Source: Akkermansia muciniphila
GTDB taxonomy: Bacteria > Verrucomicrobiota > Verrucomicrobiia > Opitutales > Opitutaceae
Assembly (NCBI GenBank): GCA_945888375.1
Contig: CAMCZZ010000002.1
Location: 124,001 to 188,000 of the forward strand
Length of the DNA stretch: 64,000 nt
Reading direction: 5' to 3'
Shown here: positions 50,236 through 55,054 of the stretch, in pieces
Layout: the number at the start of each line of letters is the position of its first letter
How positions within the stretch are numbered: the first letter of the stretch is position 1
Program-made: the position numbers and the translations under genes
Notes under the pieces: generated by a model
What the model was told of the DNA's origin: nothing
What the model saw: the letters and a program-made list of their open reading frames with translations, nothing else
The model's database searches: none

Positions 50236-50573
50236 TAGGTAGCGTCCGAAGAGTTCAGCAAAAAGGCGGGTCATGGTAGGTGGTTGGGAGACGAAACCTA
50301 AACCACCGAAACGAGGAACGAACCATGACCCGCCCGAAGCGAAACGATGAGACGATCAACCTAACGAAACAAGAACTGCTGCGAGTCCTCAGTGAGGACG
50401 ACGCGCTCAAGAAGCTGATGCAAAAGCTGCTCCAAGAAGTGCTCGAAGCGCAGATGGACGAGGCGCTGCTCGCCGGCAAGGGCGAGCGCACCACCGGCCG
50501 GCTGGGCTATCGCAGCGGTCACTACACACGGTCGCTCATCACCCGCGTGGGCAAGCTGGAGCTACGCGTGCCG
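50236..50573 (+). mobile_element. 5' fragment of an IS256-type insertion sequence
   Basis: The left end around TAGCGTCCGAAGAGTTCAGC precedes a transposase start; only about 340 bp of the element remain. The right end is missing. The break falls about 15 bases from the stop of the PATR/PEP-CTERM gene on the other strand. The exact left boundary is uncertain. Confidence 0.65.
50325..50573 (+). pseudogene. IS256-family transposase, N-terminal fragment
   Basis: 83 family-like residues (MTRPKRNDETINLTKQELLR to VGKLELRVP) match the start of IS256/Mutator-type transposases: the helical N-terminus and GYRSGHYTRSLITRVGKL. The frame then runs on into the antisense of the neighbouring gene. The DDE catalytic domain is absent, so it is inactive. 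Confidence 0.8.
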
Positions 50574-50587
50574 CCGGCTACCGGGGC

Positions 50588-52393
50588 TTACTTGGCGGCC
50601 TGGCGCTCGGAGCGACGGCGGCGCGAGGCGGCGAAGGCCAGGGCGGCGATGCCACCGAAGGCTGCGAACGAGGAGGGCTCGGGGATCGAGCTCGCGGTGA
50701 CGCCCAGCCAGCCCGTTCCGGTGAAGGAGGACAACTCGTAGGTCGCCCCGCTGCCGATGCCACCGTAGGTGCCGACGGCTTGGGAGGCGCCATTGATGAA
50801 GAGATAGGCGATGCTGTTCGTTCCCGAGAAGCCCAGATCCAACACGCTCCCGTCGAAGAGATTCACGTCCGCGCTAGAGTCGAGGAACGCACTGCTCAGG
50901 CTGAGGGTGCCGCCGTTGACGGTGATGTTACCGGTGAAGGTGTTGGCCCCAGACAGGGTCAGCACGCCCGTGCCGTTCTTGGTCAATCCGCCGCCGCCAG
51001 CACCCGCGATCAGGGCCTGGGCGATGGTCACATCGAAACCGTTGGTATCGATGATCGCGCCGCCGGACTTGACCACCGCGGACTGGCCGGCCCCACCGAG
51101 ATCGAAGAAAGCGGTGGTCGAACCAGCGGCCTTAAGCGTGCCGCCGTTGAAGTTAAACGTCGCGGTGCCGCCGTTATTAGTGGTCAGGATCTGACCGACA
51201 GTTAGCGTGCCGCCATTCAAGTTAAACTGATTGTTCGCGCCCGTGACGTTATTGTTCAGGTCGATCACACTGCCGGCCCCGCCGGTGATGGTGCCGGAGT
51301 CGAGGTTGACCGTGCCCGCCGCGGTGGAGTTTTGGGTGCTAAAACGGATGTCGGTGCCGGCGTTCAGATTGAGCGCTCCGCCGGTCACGTTGAGCGTGCC
51401 GGGGGCGGTGTCATACATGTTGACGACCAGCCAGCGCTCGACGGTGGAGCCCACGTTGACCGTGCCGCCAGCCTGGACGTTGACCTCGCCAAACGAGCCA
51501 CCTGAGCCGCTGCCGCCGCGCGAGACCACGAGGTCGGCCTCGGAGTTGAGCACGCCGGTGCCGCTGACGTTCAGCCGGGCGCGCGAGACGTCGGTGCCGT
51601 TGCCGGAATTAGCGAGGTTCACGAACGCAGCGTTGAGGGTGCCGCCGGTCACATTGGCGGTCGCCAGAGTGGAGAACCAGCGACCGAGTTCGAGACCTTT
51701 GGCGTTGATGGTGCCGCCCGATTGGTTGAGCGTGCCGGTGCTGCCCCAGGCGCCGACGTAGATCGCGAGATTGGGTGAGTTAACCGTGCCGTTGACCACG
51801 TTGAGCGTGCCGTTGGCCGGGCCGGAGGGATGGGAGCCCCAGCCCACGTTGATCGAAGACTGATACTGGCCCCAGCCGCTGAAATCTTGGTTCGAATTGG
51901 CCTGCAGGGTGCCCGAGGTGTTGACCGTCACGGTGCCCGTGCCGTTCTCGCCGTAAACAAACCCGCCCACCCAGAGCTTGCCGACCGTCAGATTACCGTC
52001 GCCGGTCAGGTTGTAGGTGCCGGTGCCGGTCTTGGTGCCGACAAACATCCAGTTGCCGTTGGTGCCGGAGGCGGCGAGCGCGAGGCTGCCGGAGCTCTGA
52101 TCGACACGACCGGAATTTCCGGCGCCGTCGCCGATAGAGAAGTCAACCGGACTGATGGTCGGGGAGCCGCTCAAGACCGCATAATTTCCGGTGGCGGTGT
52201 TAACGGTCAGTTTACCGGTGGGGCTGGAGGGGGAGGAGCTCCAGTTTCCTACGGCGTTCCAGTCCTGGCTGACCGCGCCCGTCCAGGTCGCATCAGCGTG
52301 GGCGGAGCAGGCGGCGGCGAGGGCGGTGGTTCCGAGCGCGAGGCGTCGGGAAAGCGCGTGACGATGTTTCGGGCGCGAGTTGGATGTATGCAT
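50588..52393 (-). CDS. PATR-repeat PEP-CTERM surface protein
   Basis: 601 residues: signal region (LALGTTALAAACSAHADATW, about 15-34), then many short beta repeats (GTLNVVNGTVNSPNLAIYVG, GTLNQSGGTINAKGLELGRW, TKNGTGVLTLSGANTFTGNI). The C-terminus SSIPEPSSFAAFGGIAALAF with ASRRRRSE is an intact PEP-CTERM sorting tail. It is an exported, probably cell-surface protein. Its 3' flank is replaced by the IS256 fragment, but the coding end is intact. Confidence 0.88.
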   Translation of the reverse strand: MHTSNSRPKHRHALSRRLALGTTALAAACSAHADATWTGAVSQDWNAVGNWSSSPSSPTGKLTVNTATGNYAVLSGSPTISPVDFSIGDGAGNSGRVDQSSGSLALAASGTNGNWMFVGTKTGTGTYNLTGDGNLTVGKLWVGGFVYGENGTGTVTVNTSGTLQANSNQDFSGWGQYQSSINVGWGSHPSGPANGTLNVVNGTVNSPNLAIYVGAWGSTGTLNQSGGTINAKGLELGRWFSTLATANVTGGTLNAAFVNLANSGNGTDVSRARLNVSGTGVLNSEADLVVSRGGSGSGGSFGEVNVQAGGTVNVGSTVERWLVVNMYDTAPGTLNVTGGALNLNAGTDIRFSTQNSTAAGTVNLDSGTITGGAGSVIDLNNNVTGANNQFNLNGGTLTVGQILTTNNGGTATFNFNGGTLKAAGSTTAFFDLGGAGQSAVVKSGGAIIDTNGFDVTIAQALIAGAGGGGLTKNGTGVLTLSGANTFTGNITVNGGTLSLSSAFLDSSADVNLFDGSVLDLGFSGTNSIAYLFINGASQAVGTYGGIGSGATYELSSFTGTGWLGVTASSIPEPSSFAAFGGIAALAFAASRRRRSERQAAK

Positions 52394-52620
52394 GTTGTCG
52401 AGGCGTGGGGTAGGTGCTTATGATGACAATCAATCCGGGCTGCCCCTTGGAGCACTTGAACGAAGCCTAGCAATCTGAGGGGTAGAGGGGGTGACAGGCT
52501 TTGCGACAGGAGCAGGTTACTGCTTTCGCGAAGCGTCTCCAGCTAACGTCGTGCCGGGGTTTGCGGTCAATAAATCGGCCTCCTGCGCGGACGATAAGTC
52601 AATAAATAGGTAAATATGGT
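52394..52620. promoter_or_regulatory. Gap between PATR gene start and repeat A
   Basis: 227 bp. GTCAATAAAT occurs at 52566 and 52598, and GTCAATA again at 52619, just before repeat A. The stretch should hold the minus-strand promoter of the PATR gene. I see no convincing promoter for the RHS gene. Confidence 0.35.
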
Positions 52621-53009
52621 CAATACCGATGGGGTCGCTCCGAGAAATGCAAAATCCGCCTGCCAACCCGCCCGCGGGCCAGCCCGCCGACCACGCCTAC
52701 GCCTACGATCTCGGAGGCAACCGGCGCGGCGAAGCCCGCGACGCCGCCGCCACCGCCTGGACGACCAACGGCCGCAACCAACTCGTCGCCGACGCCCCGG
52801 CCCTGCGGGTGCGGGCCGACTACAACGCCGCCCCGGCCGGCAACCGCGCCTGGCTGAACGGCCGGGAATTTGACCTCGATTCCGCGCACCGGCTCGACAC
52901 CGTCCATCCCATGGCCAGTGGCGAACAGACCCTTACGCTCCGCGCCGAGGATGCGAACACCGGCGGGGTGCTGCGCAAGAGCTGGCAAGTCACCGTGCCG
53001 GCCTTCGCC
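52621..53009. repeat. 389-bp direct repeat, copy A
   Basis: From CAATACCGATGGGGTCGCTC to GTGCCGGCCTTCGCC. It is near-identical to copy B at 54606-54994, with a constant 1985-base offset and thus no net indel. It encodes the N-terminal part of the RHS-type protein. Confidence 0.9.
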
Positions 53010-54119
53010 CCGAAGACCTTTGACTACGACGCCAACGGCAACCTCACCCGCATCACCCAGGCCGGCGTGGTGCTGCGTTTCCATAAATGGGACGCCCGCG
53101 ACCGCCTCATCGCGTGGGGTTCTAGCACCACCGTCGAGGGCCGTTTCCACTACGACAGCCTCGGCCAGCGTTACCGCGAAACCGACGGCGCTGGGGCCAC
53201 GGTGCGTCAATGGGTCTGGGATGGCGGCGCCCAGCCCTTGCAGGAACGCGACGCGAACGGCGCGGTGACGCGGCGCTTTTTCGGCCAGGGTGAAATGCGC
53301 AAGATCGGCGGCGCGGAAATCGCCCGCTACTACGCGAGAGACCACCTCGGCAGCGTCCGCGAGGTCGTCGATGGCAACAACGCCGTCGTCGCCAGCTACA
53401 CCTTCGACCCCTACGGCAGGAGGGTGAAATTGGCCGGGACGGAGAATTATGAAGTCGGTTTTACCGGTCATTACTATCATGCGGCGACGGGTTTGTATCT
53501 AACCCGTTTCCGCGCCTACGACGCCGACACCGCGCGATGGCTCAGCAGGGATCCGATTGGGGAAAATGGACCAGACGGGCCGAACTTGTATGCATATGTC
53601 CGCAACCGGCCTATCGACTATGTTGATCCAGATGGGCGCTGGGGCATCCCTGGTGCTATCGCCGGAGGAGTTGTTGGAGGGATTTCTGGAGCTATCAGCG
53701 GAGGGATTAGCGGTTATCTATCCGGGGGCTGGGGTAGCGCCTTAGCAGGTGGAATATCTGGCTCCATAGCAGGAGGGCTAACAGGGGCTGCCGTTGGTGC
53801 CGTGAACCCTTTCGCATCTAGCACAGCTGGTGCGGCGGCAGGTGGCGCTGTTGGCGGTTTTTTTGGTGACCTCGCTGGGCAAGCAACTGGGCATATGATG
53901 AGAACCGGAAACCCCAACTTGGATTGTTTTGAGCCGAATTATGCCTCTGCGGGATTATCGGCGGCAACAGGCGCCTTCGGTGCGGGTTTCGGTGCGTCAG
54001 CTGCGCGCGGAATGTCCGGACTTCCACACGCTCTTGCATCTGGTGCGGGAGAAATTGCTGTTTCGCCAGCAGCTGGAGTCTTGCAGGCAGCCGGCCCAAA
54101 CCTGTTCCCGTCGCCATGA
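52629..54119 (+). CDS. RHS-type orphan polymorphic-toxin-like protein
   Basis: 496 residues. YD/RHS repeats are visible (HAYAYDLGGNRR, FDYDANGNLTRI, FHYDSLGQRYRETDG, YARDHLGSVREVVD). The RHS core-associated end is RFRAYDADTARWLSRDPIGE with NLYAYVRNRPIDYVDPDG (about 320-337). A unique C-terminal module (about 339-496) is Gly/Ala-rich with GG-x-x-G zippers. It is far shorter than full RHS proteins and lacks a signal or upstream domain, so it is an orphan tip. The ATG at 52629 has no good ribosome binding site. The stop overlaps the next gene (ATGA). Confidence 0.78.
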   Translation: MGSLREMQNPPANPPAGQPADHAYAYDLGGNRRGEARDAAATAWTTNGRNQLVADAPALRVRADYNAAPAGNRAWLNGREFDLDSAHRLDTVHPMASGEQTLTLRAEDANTGGVLRKSWQVTVPAFAPKTFDYDANGNLTRITQAGVVLRFHKWDARDRLIAWGSSTTVEGRFHYDSLGQRYRETDGAGATVRQWVWDGGAQPLQERDANGAVTRRFFGQGEMRKIGGAEIARYYARDHLGSVREVVDGNNAVVASYTFDPYGRRVKLAGTENYEVGFTGHYYHAATGLYLTRFRAYDADTARWLSRDPIGENGPDGPNLYAYVRNRPIDYVDPDGRWGIPGAIAGGVVGGISGAISGGISGYLSGGWGSALAGGISGSIAGGLTGAAVGAVNPFASSTAGAAAGGAVGGFFGDLAGQATGHMMRTGNPNLDCFEPNYASAGLSAATGAFGAGFGASAARGMSGLPHALASGAGEIAVSPAAGVLQAAGPNLFPSP

Positions 54120-54403
54120 CGATAACTTGGTTGATATTGCTTGGTGTGCTTTTTGTATCATCCTTATTGATACATTACTGCGTAGGCTTAGTGCCTGAAC
54201 GATTCATTGCGCTAGCGTATGGATCGGGGATTTTGATGTTCCTTGGAGCGACTAGTTGGCTGGCTGTTATCTTTATTCGTCCGCAAGGCGGTGGAGCGGA
54301 GTTAGGGTTCGTTTTTTTAGCCATCTTTCTATCGTGGTGCGGGGGCGCGTTGATTTATCGCATGATGAAATTGAGCCAAAAAAATCGGGTAGAGAAACGT
54401 TGA
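54116..54403 (+). CDS. Small membrane protein, candidate immunity protein
   Basis: 95 residues with about three hydrophobic helices (about 4-24, 31-52, 62-84) and a basic C-terminus (KLSQKNRVEKR). Its ATG overlaps the RHS stop by 4 bases. Its GC is visibly lower than that of the RHS core. I do not recognise a family. Position directly after a polymorphic toxin tip and membrane location suggest immunity to a membrane-acting toxin. Confidence 0.6.
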   Translation: MTITWLILLGVLFVSSLLIHYCVGLVPERFIALAYGSGILMFLGATSWLAVIFIRPQGGGAELGFVFLAIFLSWCGGALIYRMMKLSQKNRVEKR

Positions 54404-54439
54404 ATCTTCCCCCTGAAACGCCCCCGCCGCGTTAAGATC

Positions 54440-54490
54440 CTCGCAGACTCGGCGGCACGTCTCGCGCCAGCTCTCCGCCGAGCCTGCGAG
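54440..54490. repeat. Inverted repeat with 16-bp arms
   Basis: CTCGCAGACTCGGCGG (54440-54455) and CCGCCGAGCCTGCGAG (54475-54490) pair with a single mismatch around a 19-base loop. No T run. It may be a REP-type palindrome related to the broken Y1 transposase downstream. Confidence 0.65.
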
Positions 54491-54560
54491 CTGTCACGAG
54501 CCCTGCTTGCTCCCTCGCTGCGCTCGGTCCGCTGGAGTGCAACCCCGCCCGGCCCGGCCC

Positions 54561-54580
54561 ACGGCGCAAGAATGCGCCGT
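54561..54580. repeat. Perfect hairpin before repeat B
   Basis: ACGGCGCA-AGAA-TGCGCCGT, 8-bp stem with a 4-base loop, sits just before the 18-bp tandem and repeat B. It could be an RNA end or the boundary of an inserted segment. Confidence 0.55.
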
Positions 54581-54585
54581 AGAGG

Positions 54586-54621
54586 CCCAATACCGATGGG
54601 GTGCCCAATACCGATGGGGTC
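54586..54621. repeat. 18-bp tandem duplication at the edge of repeat B
   Basis: CCCAATACCGATGGGGTG at 54586 is followed at once by CCCAATACCGATGGGGTC. Only the second unit continues into the 389-bp repeat. Copy A has a single unit. Confidence 0.8.
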
Positions 54622-54994
54622 GCTCCGAGAAATGCAAAATCCGCCTGCCAACCTGCCCCCCGGCCAGCCGGCCGACCACGCCTACGCCTACGATCTCGGC
54701 GGCAACCGGCGCGGCGAAGCCCGCGACGCCGCCGCCACCGCCTGGACGACCAACGGCCGCAACCAACTCGTCGCCGCCGCCCCGGCCCTGCGGGTGCGGG
54801 CCGACTACAACGCCGCCCCCGCCGGCAACCGCACCTGGCTGAACGGCCGGGAATTTGACCTCGATTCCGCGCACCGGCTCGACACCGTCCTTCCCATGGC
54901 CAGTGGCGAACAGACCCTTACCCTCCGCGCCGAGGACGCCGCGACCGGCGGGGTGCTCCGCAATAGCTGGCAGGTGACCGTGCCGGCCTTCGCC
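54606..54994. repeat. 389-bp direct repeat, copy B
   Basis: This is the second copy of the RHS segment. It ends where copy A goes on into RHS repeats, at the shared GTGCCGGCCTTCGCC. Confidence 0.9.
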
Positions 54995-55054
54995 TCATTC
55001 TCGGCGGAGAACAACCGCCCGAATGGGACCAAGCCCAGGCCGACTACCGCGTAA
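54614..55054 (+). pseudogene. Truncated second RHS segment
   Basis: From the ATG matching that of the intact copy, 127 residues equal the first part of the RHS-like protein with few changes (AAAPALRVRADY for ADAPALRVRADY; ATGGVLRNSWQV for NTGGVLRKSWQV). Then it runs into unrelated sequence (FSAENNRPNGTKPRPTTA) and stops. It lacks the core end and toxin tip. It may act as a recombination donor. Confidence 0.75.

Follow-up and report, generated by a model that had tools for sequence, protein, structure and literature searches.

The window, a stretch of 64,000 nucleotides (G000:C2:124001-188000) from a 3.22 Mb draft genome that, judging by its PEP-CTERM proteins and other genes, is probably verrucomicrobial, contains the 3' end of an rhs gene. 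This fragment (fragment A, 52629..54119 on the forward strand) is an open reading frame of 496 amino acids with RHS repeats (PF05593 in a Pfam search), the end of the RHS-associated core, a tail, and a stop codon; the delivery part of the protein is absent. The core end (TIGR03696, E = 9.4e-21) spans residues 259-336 (53403..53636, forward strand) and terminates in ...IDYVDPDG. In both the sequence and the TIGR03696 match, the DPxG of the core end (DPDG) directly precedes the variable tail. By analogy with D1141 and D1164 of Tse5, RDPIG ... VDPDG may hold the aspartate pair of a putative autoprotease. The next gene (54116..54403, forward strand) starts on the ATG of an ATGA overlap with the tail and encodes a three-helix membrane protein of 95 residues, which is a candidate cognate immunity protein (RhsI). 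Both reading frames and the ATGA overlap are intact. The initial annotation had the coordinates right: the ORF list and the TIGR03696 match place the tail after DPDG and the overlapping 95-residue ORF where it had put them.

That annotation did not describe that the rhs gene is a 3' fragment, that a tail-less copy of its 5' part lies downstream, or that the genome holds no further match to the core. The 337-residue core matches just two places genome-wide (E ≤ 0.001), fragment A and the copy just downstream, and this search found no full-length rhs in the window's genome. The second copy (fragment B, 54605..55054, forward strand) is a core repeat that is also present in G011, another genome of the same genus; its match at 54614-55051 is 86% identical to the 5' part of fragment A. 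Fragment A opens with a junction sequence (J, 52618..52662, forward strand), and fragment B opens with this sequence too. Since the delivery part is absent, we describe the locus as an orphan rhs-CT/immunity module.

G011 keeps the neighbors of this locus. On one side is a gene for what we take to be a glycogen synthase, and on the other side are presumed genes for an AEC-type permease and an rny-like protein (these labels are our own, from the translations). Between these neighbors, G011 has a full-length rhs, whose product has 1899 amino acids from the MKARLLRLLLALLPPVLAAQ start and a Sec-signal-like N-terminus. (In the N-terminal part of this Rhs protein, which is encoded at L058 6788-12580 on the reverse strand, residues 246-361 have a weak match to Peptidase_C39, with E = 1e-4 and 22.6 bits where the cut-off is 22.)

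Comparing the two genomes revealed a cassette exchange. The core end is 93% identical between the window and G011 at the DNA level up to 53638, and the flank is 94-97% identical from 54605 on. (A finer alignment places the break in high identity near 53552, about 30 codons before the end of DPDG.) The cassette in between (53639..54604, forward strand) has no match to the DNA of the G011 locus among the blastn matches listed, and both of its flanks are 93-97% identical. At the corresponding place, G011 has a different Gly-rich tail, of 154 residues, and a hydrophobic ORF of 83 residues, likewise with an ATGA overlap, followed by the same core repeat. The two tails can be aligned (score of 131 versus 60 ± 10 for shuffled sequences, with 0 of 500 shuffles reaching it); the 95- and 83-residue membrane proteins have no similarity to each other (score of 30 versus a shuffle mean of 30, which 241 of 500 shuffles reach). 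Furthermore, GC3 is 0.83 in the core of the window and falls to 0.44 in the tail and 0.48 in the small ORF; the tail and small ORF of G011 have GC3 of 0.40 and 0.36. Because the flanks are conserved, the tail and the small ORF are replaced, and GC3 drops, we conclude that a foreign cassette was swapped at the core end. The core repeat marks the far side of the swapped cassette. The window thus offers a clean natural cassette exchange between two closely related genomes.

We also considered that the tail might have just a structural role, at the C-terminal end of an RHS protein outside the cell, with the small membrane ORF as an unrelated neighbor. The Gly-rich, low-complexity composition of the tail is consistent with this, as is the fact that we found no relatives. 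However, the tail and the ORF were exchanged as a block against a different tail and membrane ORF with an equal overlap, and in our survey (below), tips that are rich in small residues are associated with membrane partners. This explanation seems extremely unlikely.

The junction sequence suggests how fragment A arose. In G011, J precedes the downstream fragment only: 52618-53009 of the window corresponds to L058 6490-6099 with 95.2% identity (blastn), and the match to the full-length rhs of G011 starts only at 52663. That fragments A and B open at the same junction is as expected of displaced modules. This sequence evidence is most simply read as fragment A being a former displaced CT/immunity module, which lay behind a main rhs that has since been lost from the genome.

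Near the point where the remaining rhs is missing lies a truncated transposase of the Mutator family (IS256-like; 50280..50741, forward strand; PF00872, E = 4.5e-16, positions 10-102 of 379 in the profile). It adjoins a gene with PATR repeats (50588-52393, reverse strand) whose PEP-CTERM end scores below threshold; at this place, G011 has the remaining rhs. When we inspected the sequence upstream of the ATG at 52629, we did not find a convincing Shine-Dalgarno sequence. A scan for promoters and terminators gave two weak promoter-like sites, and Rfam had no match anywhere in the window. Without a clear ribosome-binding site and without a delivery gene in the genome, the orphan may be decaying. 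In the extreme case, it would be a remnant with no current function: a rearrangement truncated rhs, and neither the tail nor the small ORF is still produced or required. This would fit with the unclear start signal, with this being the sole RHS core locus in the genome, and with the transposase fragment and the unrelated PEP-CTERM/PATR gene where G011 has the remaining rhs. On the other hand, neither frame is broken and the ATGA overlap persists, and in CDI systems, orphan immunity genes are reported to be expressed and functional (PMC3150448). We consider that a functionless remnant is quite unlikely.

The tail after DPDG has 158 residues (53643-54116). It contains 18 GxxxG pairs, versus 9.6 ± 2.3 expected from composition-preserving shuffles (0 of 2000 shuffles reach 18), and 7 instances of GGxxG, versus 2.3 expected (16 of 2000 shuffles reach 7). 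About 4% of its residues are charged. The AlphaFold2 model of the tail is helical, with low confidence (pLDDT of 44).

Alignments divide the tail into two parts. The first ~85 residues (53637..53891, forward strand) form a glycine-zipper module with helices that are predicted at low confidence; this module resembles a pre-toxin or entry module and is common to the tails of G011 and G187 (0 of 1000 shuffles reach the alignment score in either case). The last ~75 residues (53892..54119, forward strand) form a variable tip that is weakly charged and rich in glycine, alanine, and serine (a fraction of 0.48), and are a candidate for a membrane-acting toxin end. The tip is not conserved in comparison to the C-terminal halves of the G011 and G187 tails (110 of 1000 and 788 of 1000 shuffles reach the score).

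The tail has no assignment in Pfam, NCBIfam, or PDB, and its single match in PHROGs is weak and unnamed (E = 0.0031). In particular, it does not match PF13488 (Gly-zipper_Omp) at E ≤ 1, and the G011 tail scores 10.3-10.4 bits against this family's cut-off of 25. Homology searches for the tail returned nothing from plasmids and nothing from genome contigs outside the window's genome. A profile of three tails found G000 and G011 only, both among 387 genomes of the phylum and among 15 genomes of the genus.

The window tail does score highly against the zipper regions of several long tails. An example is L066, whose tail of 373 residues has a further C-terminal domain and whose partner lacks several membrane spans. 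Because periodic glycines inflate alignment scores, the zipper likeness indicates a common type and does not prove common descent. (L066, L068, L082, and L087 all have Rhs tails of 360-400 amino acids that begin with a zipper-containing half and carry a distinct C-terminal domain. Their partners open with a single hydrophobic segment, like a signal peptide, instead of several.)

These long tails raise another explanation for the cassette: it could encode a toxin and its immunity protein, with the zipper serving only for translocation. The target of the tip would then not be the membrane, and the membrane protein would block entry rather than a pore. Besides the resemblance of the zipper half to zipper regions of long tails with other terminal domains and soluble or signal-peptide partners, the glycine zipper of Tde1 is reported to be necessary for translocation into target cells (PMC10240207). 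But the last 75 residues are 48% Gly/Ala/Ser, with few charges and no recognizable enzyme domain, and Gly/Ala/Ser-rich tips go with membrane partners in our survey. We view a translocation-only zipper as unlikely, if worth keeping in mind.

Hydropathy shows three hydrophobic segments in the 95-residue protein, and single-sequence AlphaFold2 predicts three helices (residues 2-25, 28-54, and 60-94; mean pLDDT of 75.5). The protein has no assignment in Pfam, NCBIfam, PDB, or PHROGs. No homologue was found outside of the window's genome in plasmids, viral contigs, or genome contigs. A fold search of the PDB with the model gave 39 matches, of which the best had E = 1.3 and none was meaningful. So several points in the initial annotation hold up: the richness of the ~158-residue tail in glycine-zipper motifs, which exceeds the shuffled expectation for both GxxxG and GGxxG; a partner of 95 residues with about three helices and an ATGA overlap; and the statement that neither family was recognized. 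The layout (Rhs-CT/RhsI) is known, and the sequences of the tail and the 95-residue protein are new. Among the papers listed by our full-text searches of open-access literature, none describes, judging by title or the start of the abstract, the tail, the immunity protein, or the small-residue rule that we present below.

A single CNNM/CorC protein, encoded in another genome of this order (G150), aligns to residues 2-49 of the 95-residue protein. The score is 104, versus a maximum of 69 across 3000 shuffles, and the match (E = 2.5e-6) was found in 1 of the 189 genomes searched. The aligned stretch comprises the first helix, a PERFIAL turn, and the second helix, and resembles the part of the G150 protein that surrounds the conserved GELxPR motif. 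The window's own genome also encodes a CNNM protein (G000:C1:284248-285519). One could imagine that the immunity protein derives from part of a CNNM/CorC-type transporter membrane domain and acts as a decoy: the tip would enter the membrane by docking on a CNNM-type transporter, with which the immunity protein would compete by mimicking the docking surface. If true, this would link a toxin that varies to a receptor that is conserved. We think that this is very unlikely. Against a profile built from the corresponding region of 29 CNNM proteins without G150, the 95-residue protein scores 7.1 bits, which is about the same as some unrelated membrane partners, so a CNNM origin is only a lead. Also, no Pfam match of the 95-residue protein to PF01595 (the CNNM transmembrane domain) is listed at E ≤ 10. 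Given the profile scores and the empty fold search, we set the CNNM origin aside.

We surveyed Rhs tails and their partners in two sets. The query for set 1 included the first ~65 residues of the tail. Set 1 comprised 112 regions among the listed matches (12, including the window's own, plus 100), besides short automatic loci; its 158 core hits were reduced to 120 by filters for coverage and duplicates and then to 102 with a usable tail and partner. For set 2, the query was the core alone, and other genomes were taken in listing order. It comprised 80 regions among the listed matches, with 95 hits, and 74 were kept (5 were lost to low coverage, 3 were duplicates, 3 were cut, 3 failed on length, and 7 had no partner). 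The rule was that if Gly+Ala+Ser make up at least 0.36 of the last 100 residues of the tail, then the partner has at least two hydrophobic segments, where transmembrane segments are simple hydropathy counts. The threshold of 0.36 was chosen on set 1 and fixed before set 2 was drawn.

In set 1, 10 of 11 small-residue tails had a partner with multiple segments, versus 23 of 91 other tails. Without the studied pair, this becomes 8/9 versus 23/91 (p = 3e-4). The preset test on set 2 gave 8/9 versus 10/65 (Fisher's test, p = 2.3e-5). Across both sets without the studied pair (174 tails), 16 of 18 small-residue tails had such a partner, versus 33 of 156 others (p = 2e-8). The exceptions, without a membrane partner, are L093 (the 1 of 9 in set 1 with the pair left out) and L259 (the 1 of 9 in set 2), which has a low-complexity Gly-rich end. 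The link is not accounted for by the length of the tail or by local GC: the association persists among tails of at most 250 amino acids (13/15 versus 28/112), and when the Gly/Ala/Ser term was permuted in a logistic model that also included length and GC, 0 of 500 permutations matched it. The Gly/Ala/Ser content of the last 75 residues also differs by the type of partner (AUC of 0.69, p = 9e-5, 174 tails without the pair). As for charge in the last 100 residues, set 1 showed no significant difference (p = 0.12), but set 2 did (one-sided p = 9.4e-5). Zipper content was rejected as a marker of membrane tips (p = 0.997 in set 1; for the first 100 residues in both sets, AUC of 0.54, p = 0.35).

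The survey therefore separates the glycine zipper, which is shared and not predictive, from the tip, which is variable and predictive. We would expect such an association if the membrane is where small-residue tips act and where their immunity proteins reside. It is a statistical association, and a membrane partner tells us where immunity is located, not that the tip forms a pore. The proposal in the initial annotation of a toxin-immunity cassette is supported by the exchange of the tail and small ORF as a block, by the foreign codon composition, and by this link between tips and membrane partners. Its equation of the glycine zipper with a pore-forming tip needs to be split: the zipper half resembles parts of tails whose partners are not membrane proteins, and it is the last ~75-100 residues, not zipper density, that predict a membrane partner. 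It had also named an alignment of the tip to a linker as a refuting outcome; by this measure, the first half of the tail leans towards a shared pre-toxin module, and the second half does not.

Many characterized Rhs tips are enzymes. If small-residue tips with membrane partners form a class, then their composition offers an easy route to selecting candidates for membrane-acting Rhs toxins from genomes, even where these have no homology to known ones.

Two other observations came from the survey. First, some partners of small-residue tips (L030, L035, L240, and L273; 145-169 amino acids) have 2-3 hydrophobic segments and a soluble C-terminal part that looks rich in beta strands. Pfam gave no family at its cut-off for partners of this type; to us, the C-terminal parts have a PH-like character, but this is only an impression. 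Second, there are tandem copies of the RHS core, 2-4 kb apart, in G325:C169 (at 2099, 4836, 7338, and 11146) and in G027:C1 (at 1512266 and 1515376). These look like arrays of orphan CT/immunity modules.

Overall, we think it probable that the locus is an orphan Rhs-CT/immunity module with a zipper-containing pre-toxin part, a tip that most likely acts on the cytoplasmic membrane, and a 95-residue protein that is most likely the cognate immunity protein. We propose that a full-length Rhs protein, as in G011, would be exported by Sec. The autoprotease with the core's aspartate pair would cut after DPDG, as in Tse5, and the tip would be released into a neighboring cell. The zipper module of ~85 residues, most likely a pre-toxin, might help with membrane association, entry, or crossing (compare to Tde1). 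The tip of ~75 residues would insert in the target's cytoplasmic membrane and depolarize it, and the three-helix protein would keep the tip from inserting or assembling in the membrane of the producing cell. As the delivery part is gone, the module in the window would now be stored immunity and a reserve for recombination, with the flanking core repeats allowing it to act as a donor. The immunity protein is probably the useful product.

The CdiA-CT EC93 group is reported to have an entry domain and a membrane-depolarizing domain with a putative glycine zipper (PMC11630599). Like the window's tail, these CDI ionophore toxins have a two-part CT, and the CdiI proteins there are polymorphic and hydrophobic. 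Unlike the window's module, they rely on delivery by CdiA and have a VENN motif (we found none in the window's ORF or tail), and the parallel drawn here is one of architecture. In EsxX, TelE, and TspA (PMC12744356), the zipper is tied to membrane toxicity and there are membrane immunity proteins, as for our candidate. These proteins belong to the T7SS, EsxX additionally requires immunity proteins that are soluble, and again the parallel drawn here is one of architecture. The Cdz bacteriocin of Caulobacter (PMC5380434) consists of contact-killing glycine-zipper proteins, but it is a two-protein bacteriocin and not an Rhs tip.

In arrangement, the locus compares with the orphan rhs-CT/rhsI modules, displaced near the main rhs, that are described from Dickeya dadantii and Yersinia (PMC3150448). 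According to the same source, most CdiA-CT orphans are without translation initiation signals. As in the rhs orphans, the window has a core repeat up to DPxG, a break after it, and an immunity gene directly next to it, and related strains have differing CT/immunity pairs at one locus. The differences from those described orphans are that the main rhs is wholly missing from the window, that the Rhs protein of the relative has a Sec-like N-terminus, and that the tail and the immunity protein match no family.

In the proposed mode of action, a parallel is Tse5 from Pseudomonas aeruginosa (PMC9637101, PMC10684867). The aspartate pair in its core cuts off a CT of 149 residues, which forms pores and is countered by a membrane protein with two spans. 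Like Tse5, fragment A has an Rhs core with a (here putative) Asp-pair cleavage site and a CT of ~150 residues without predicted enzymatic activity. A Tse5 chain in the PDB (8cp6_B, 1121 residues) matches residues 226-336 of our ORF, which is the core only, and does so at its own end; the chain stops before the CT. The CTs differ in charge, with 32 of 149 charged residues in Tse5-CT as described in those papers versus ~4% in the window's tail, and we noticed no PAAR or T6SS context for the window's module. Tsi5 has two predicted spans there and the window's protein has three helices, so both are small membrane proteins with multiple spans. The module in the window appears to be a member, as yet without a family, of a known kind, Rhs-CT/RhsI, with a logic like that of Tse5 and Tsi5.
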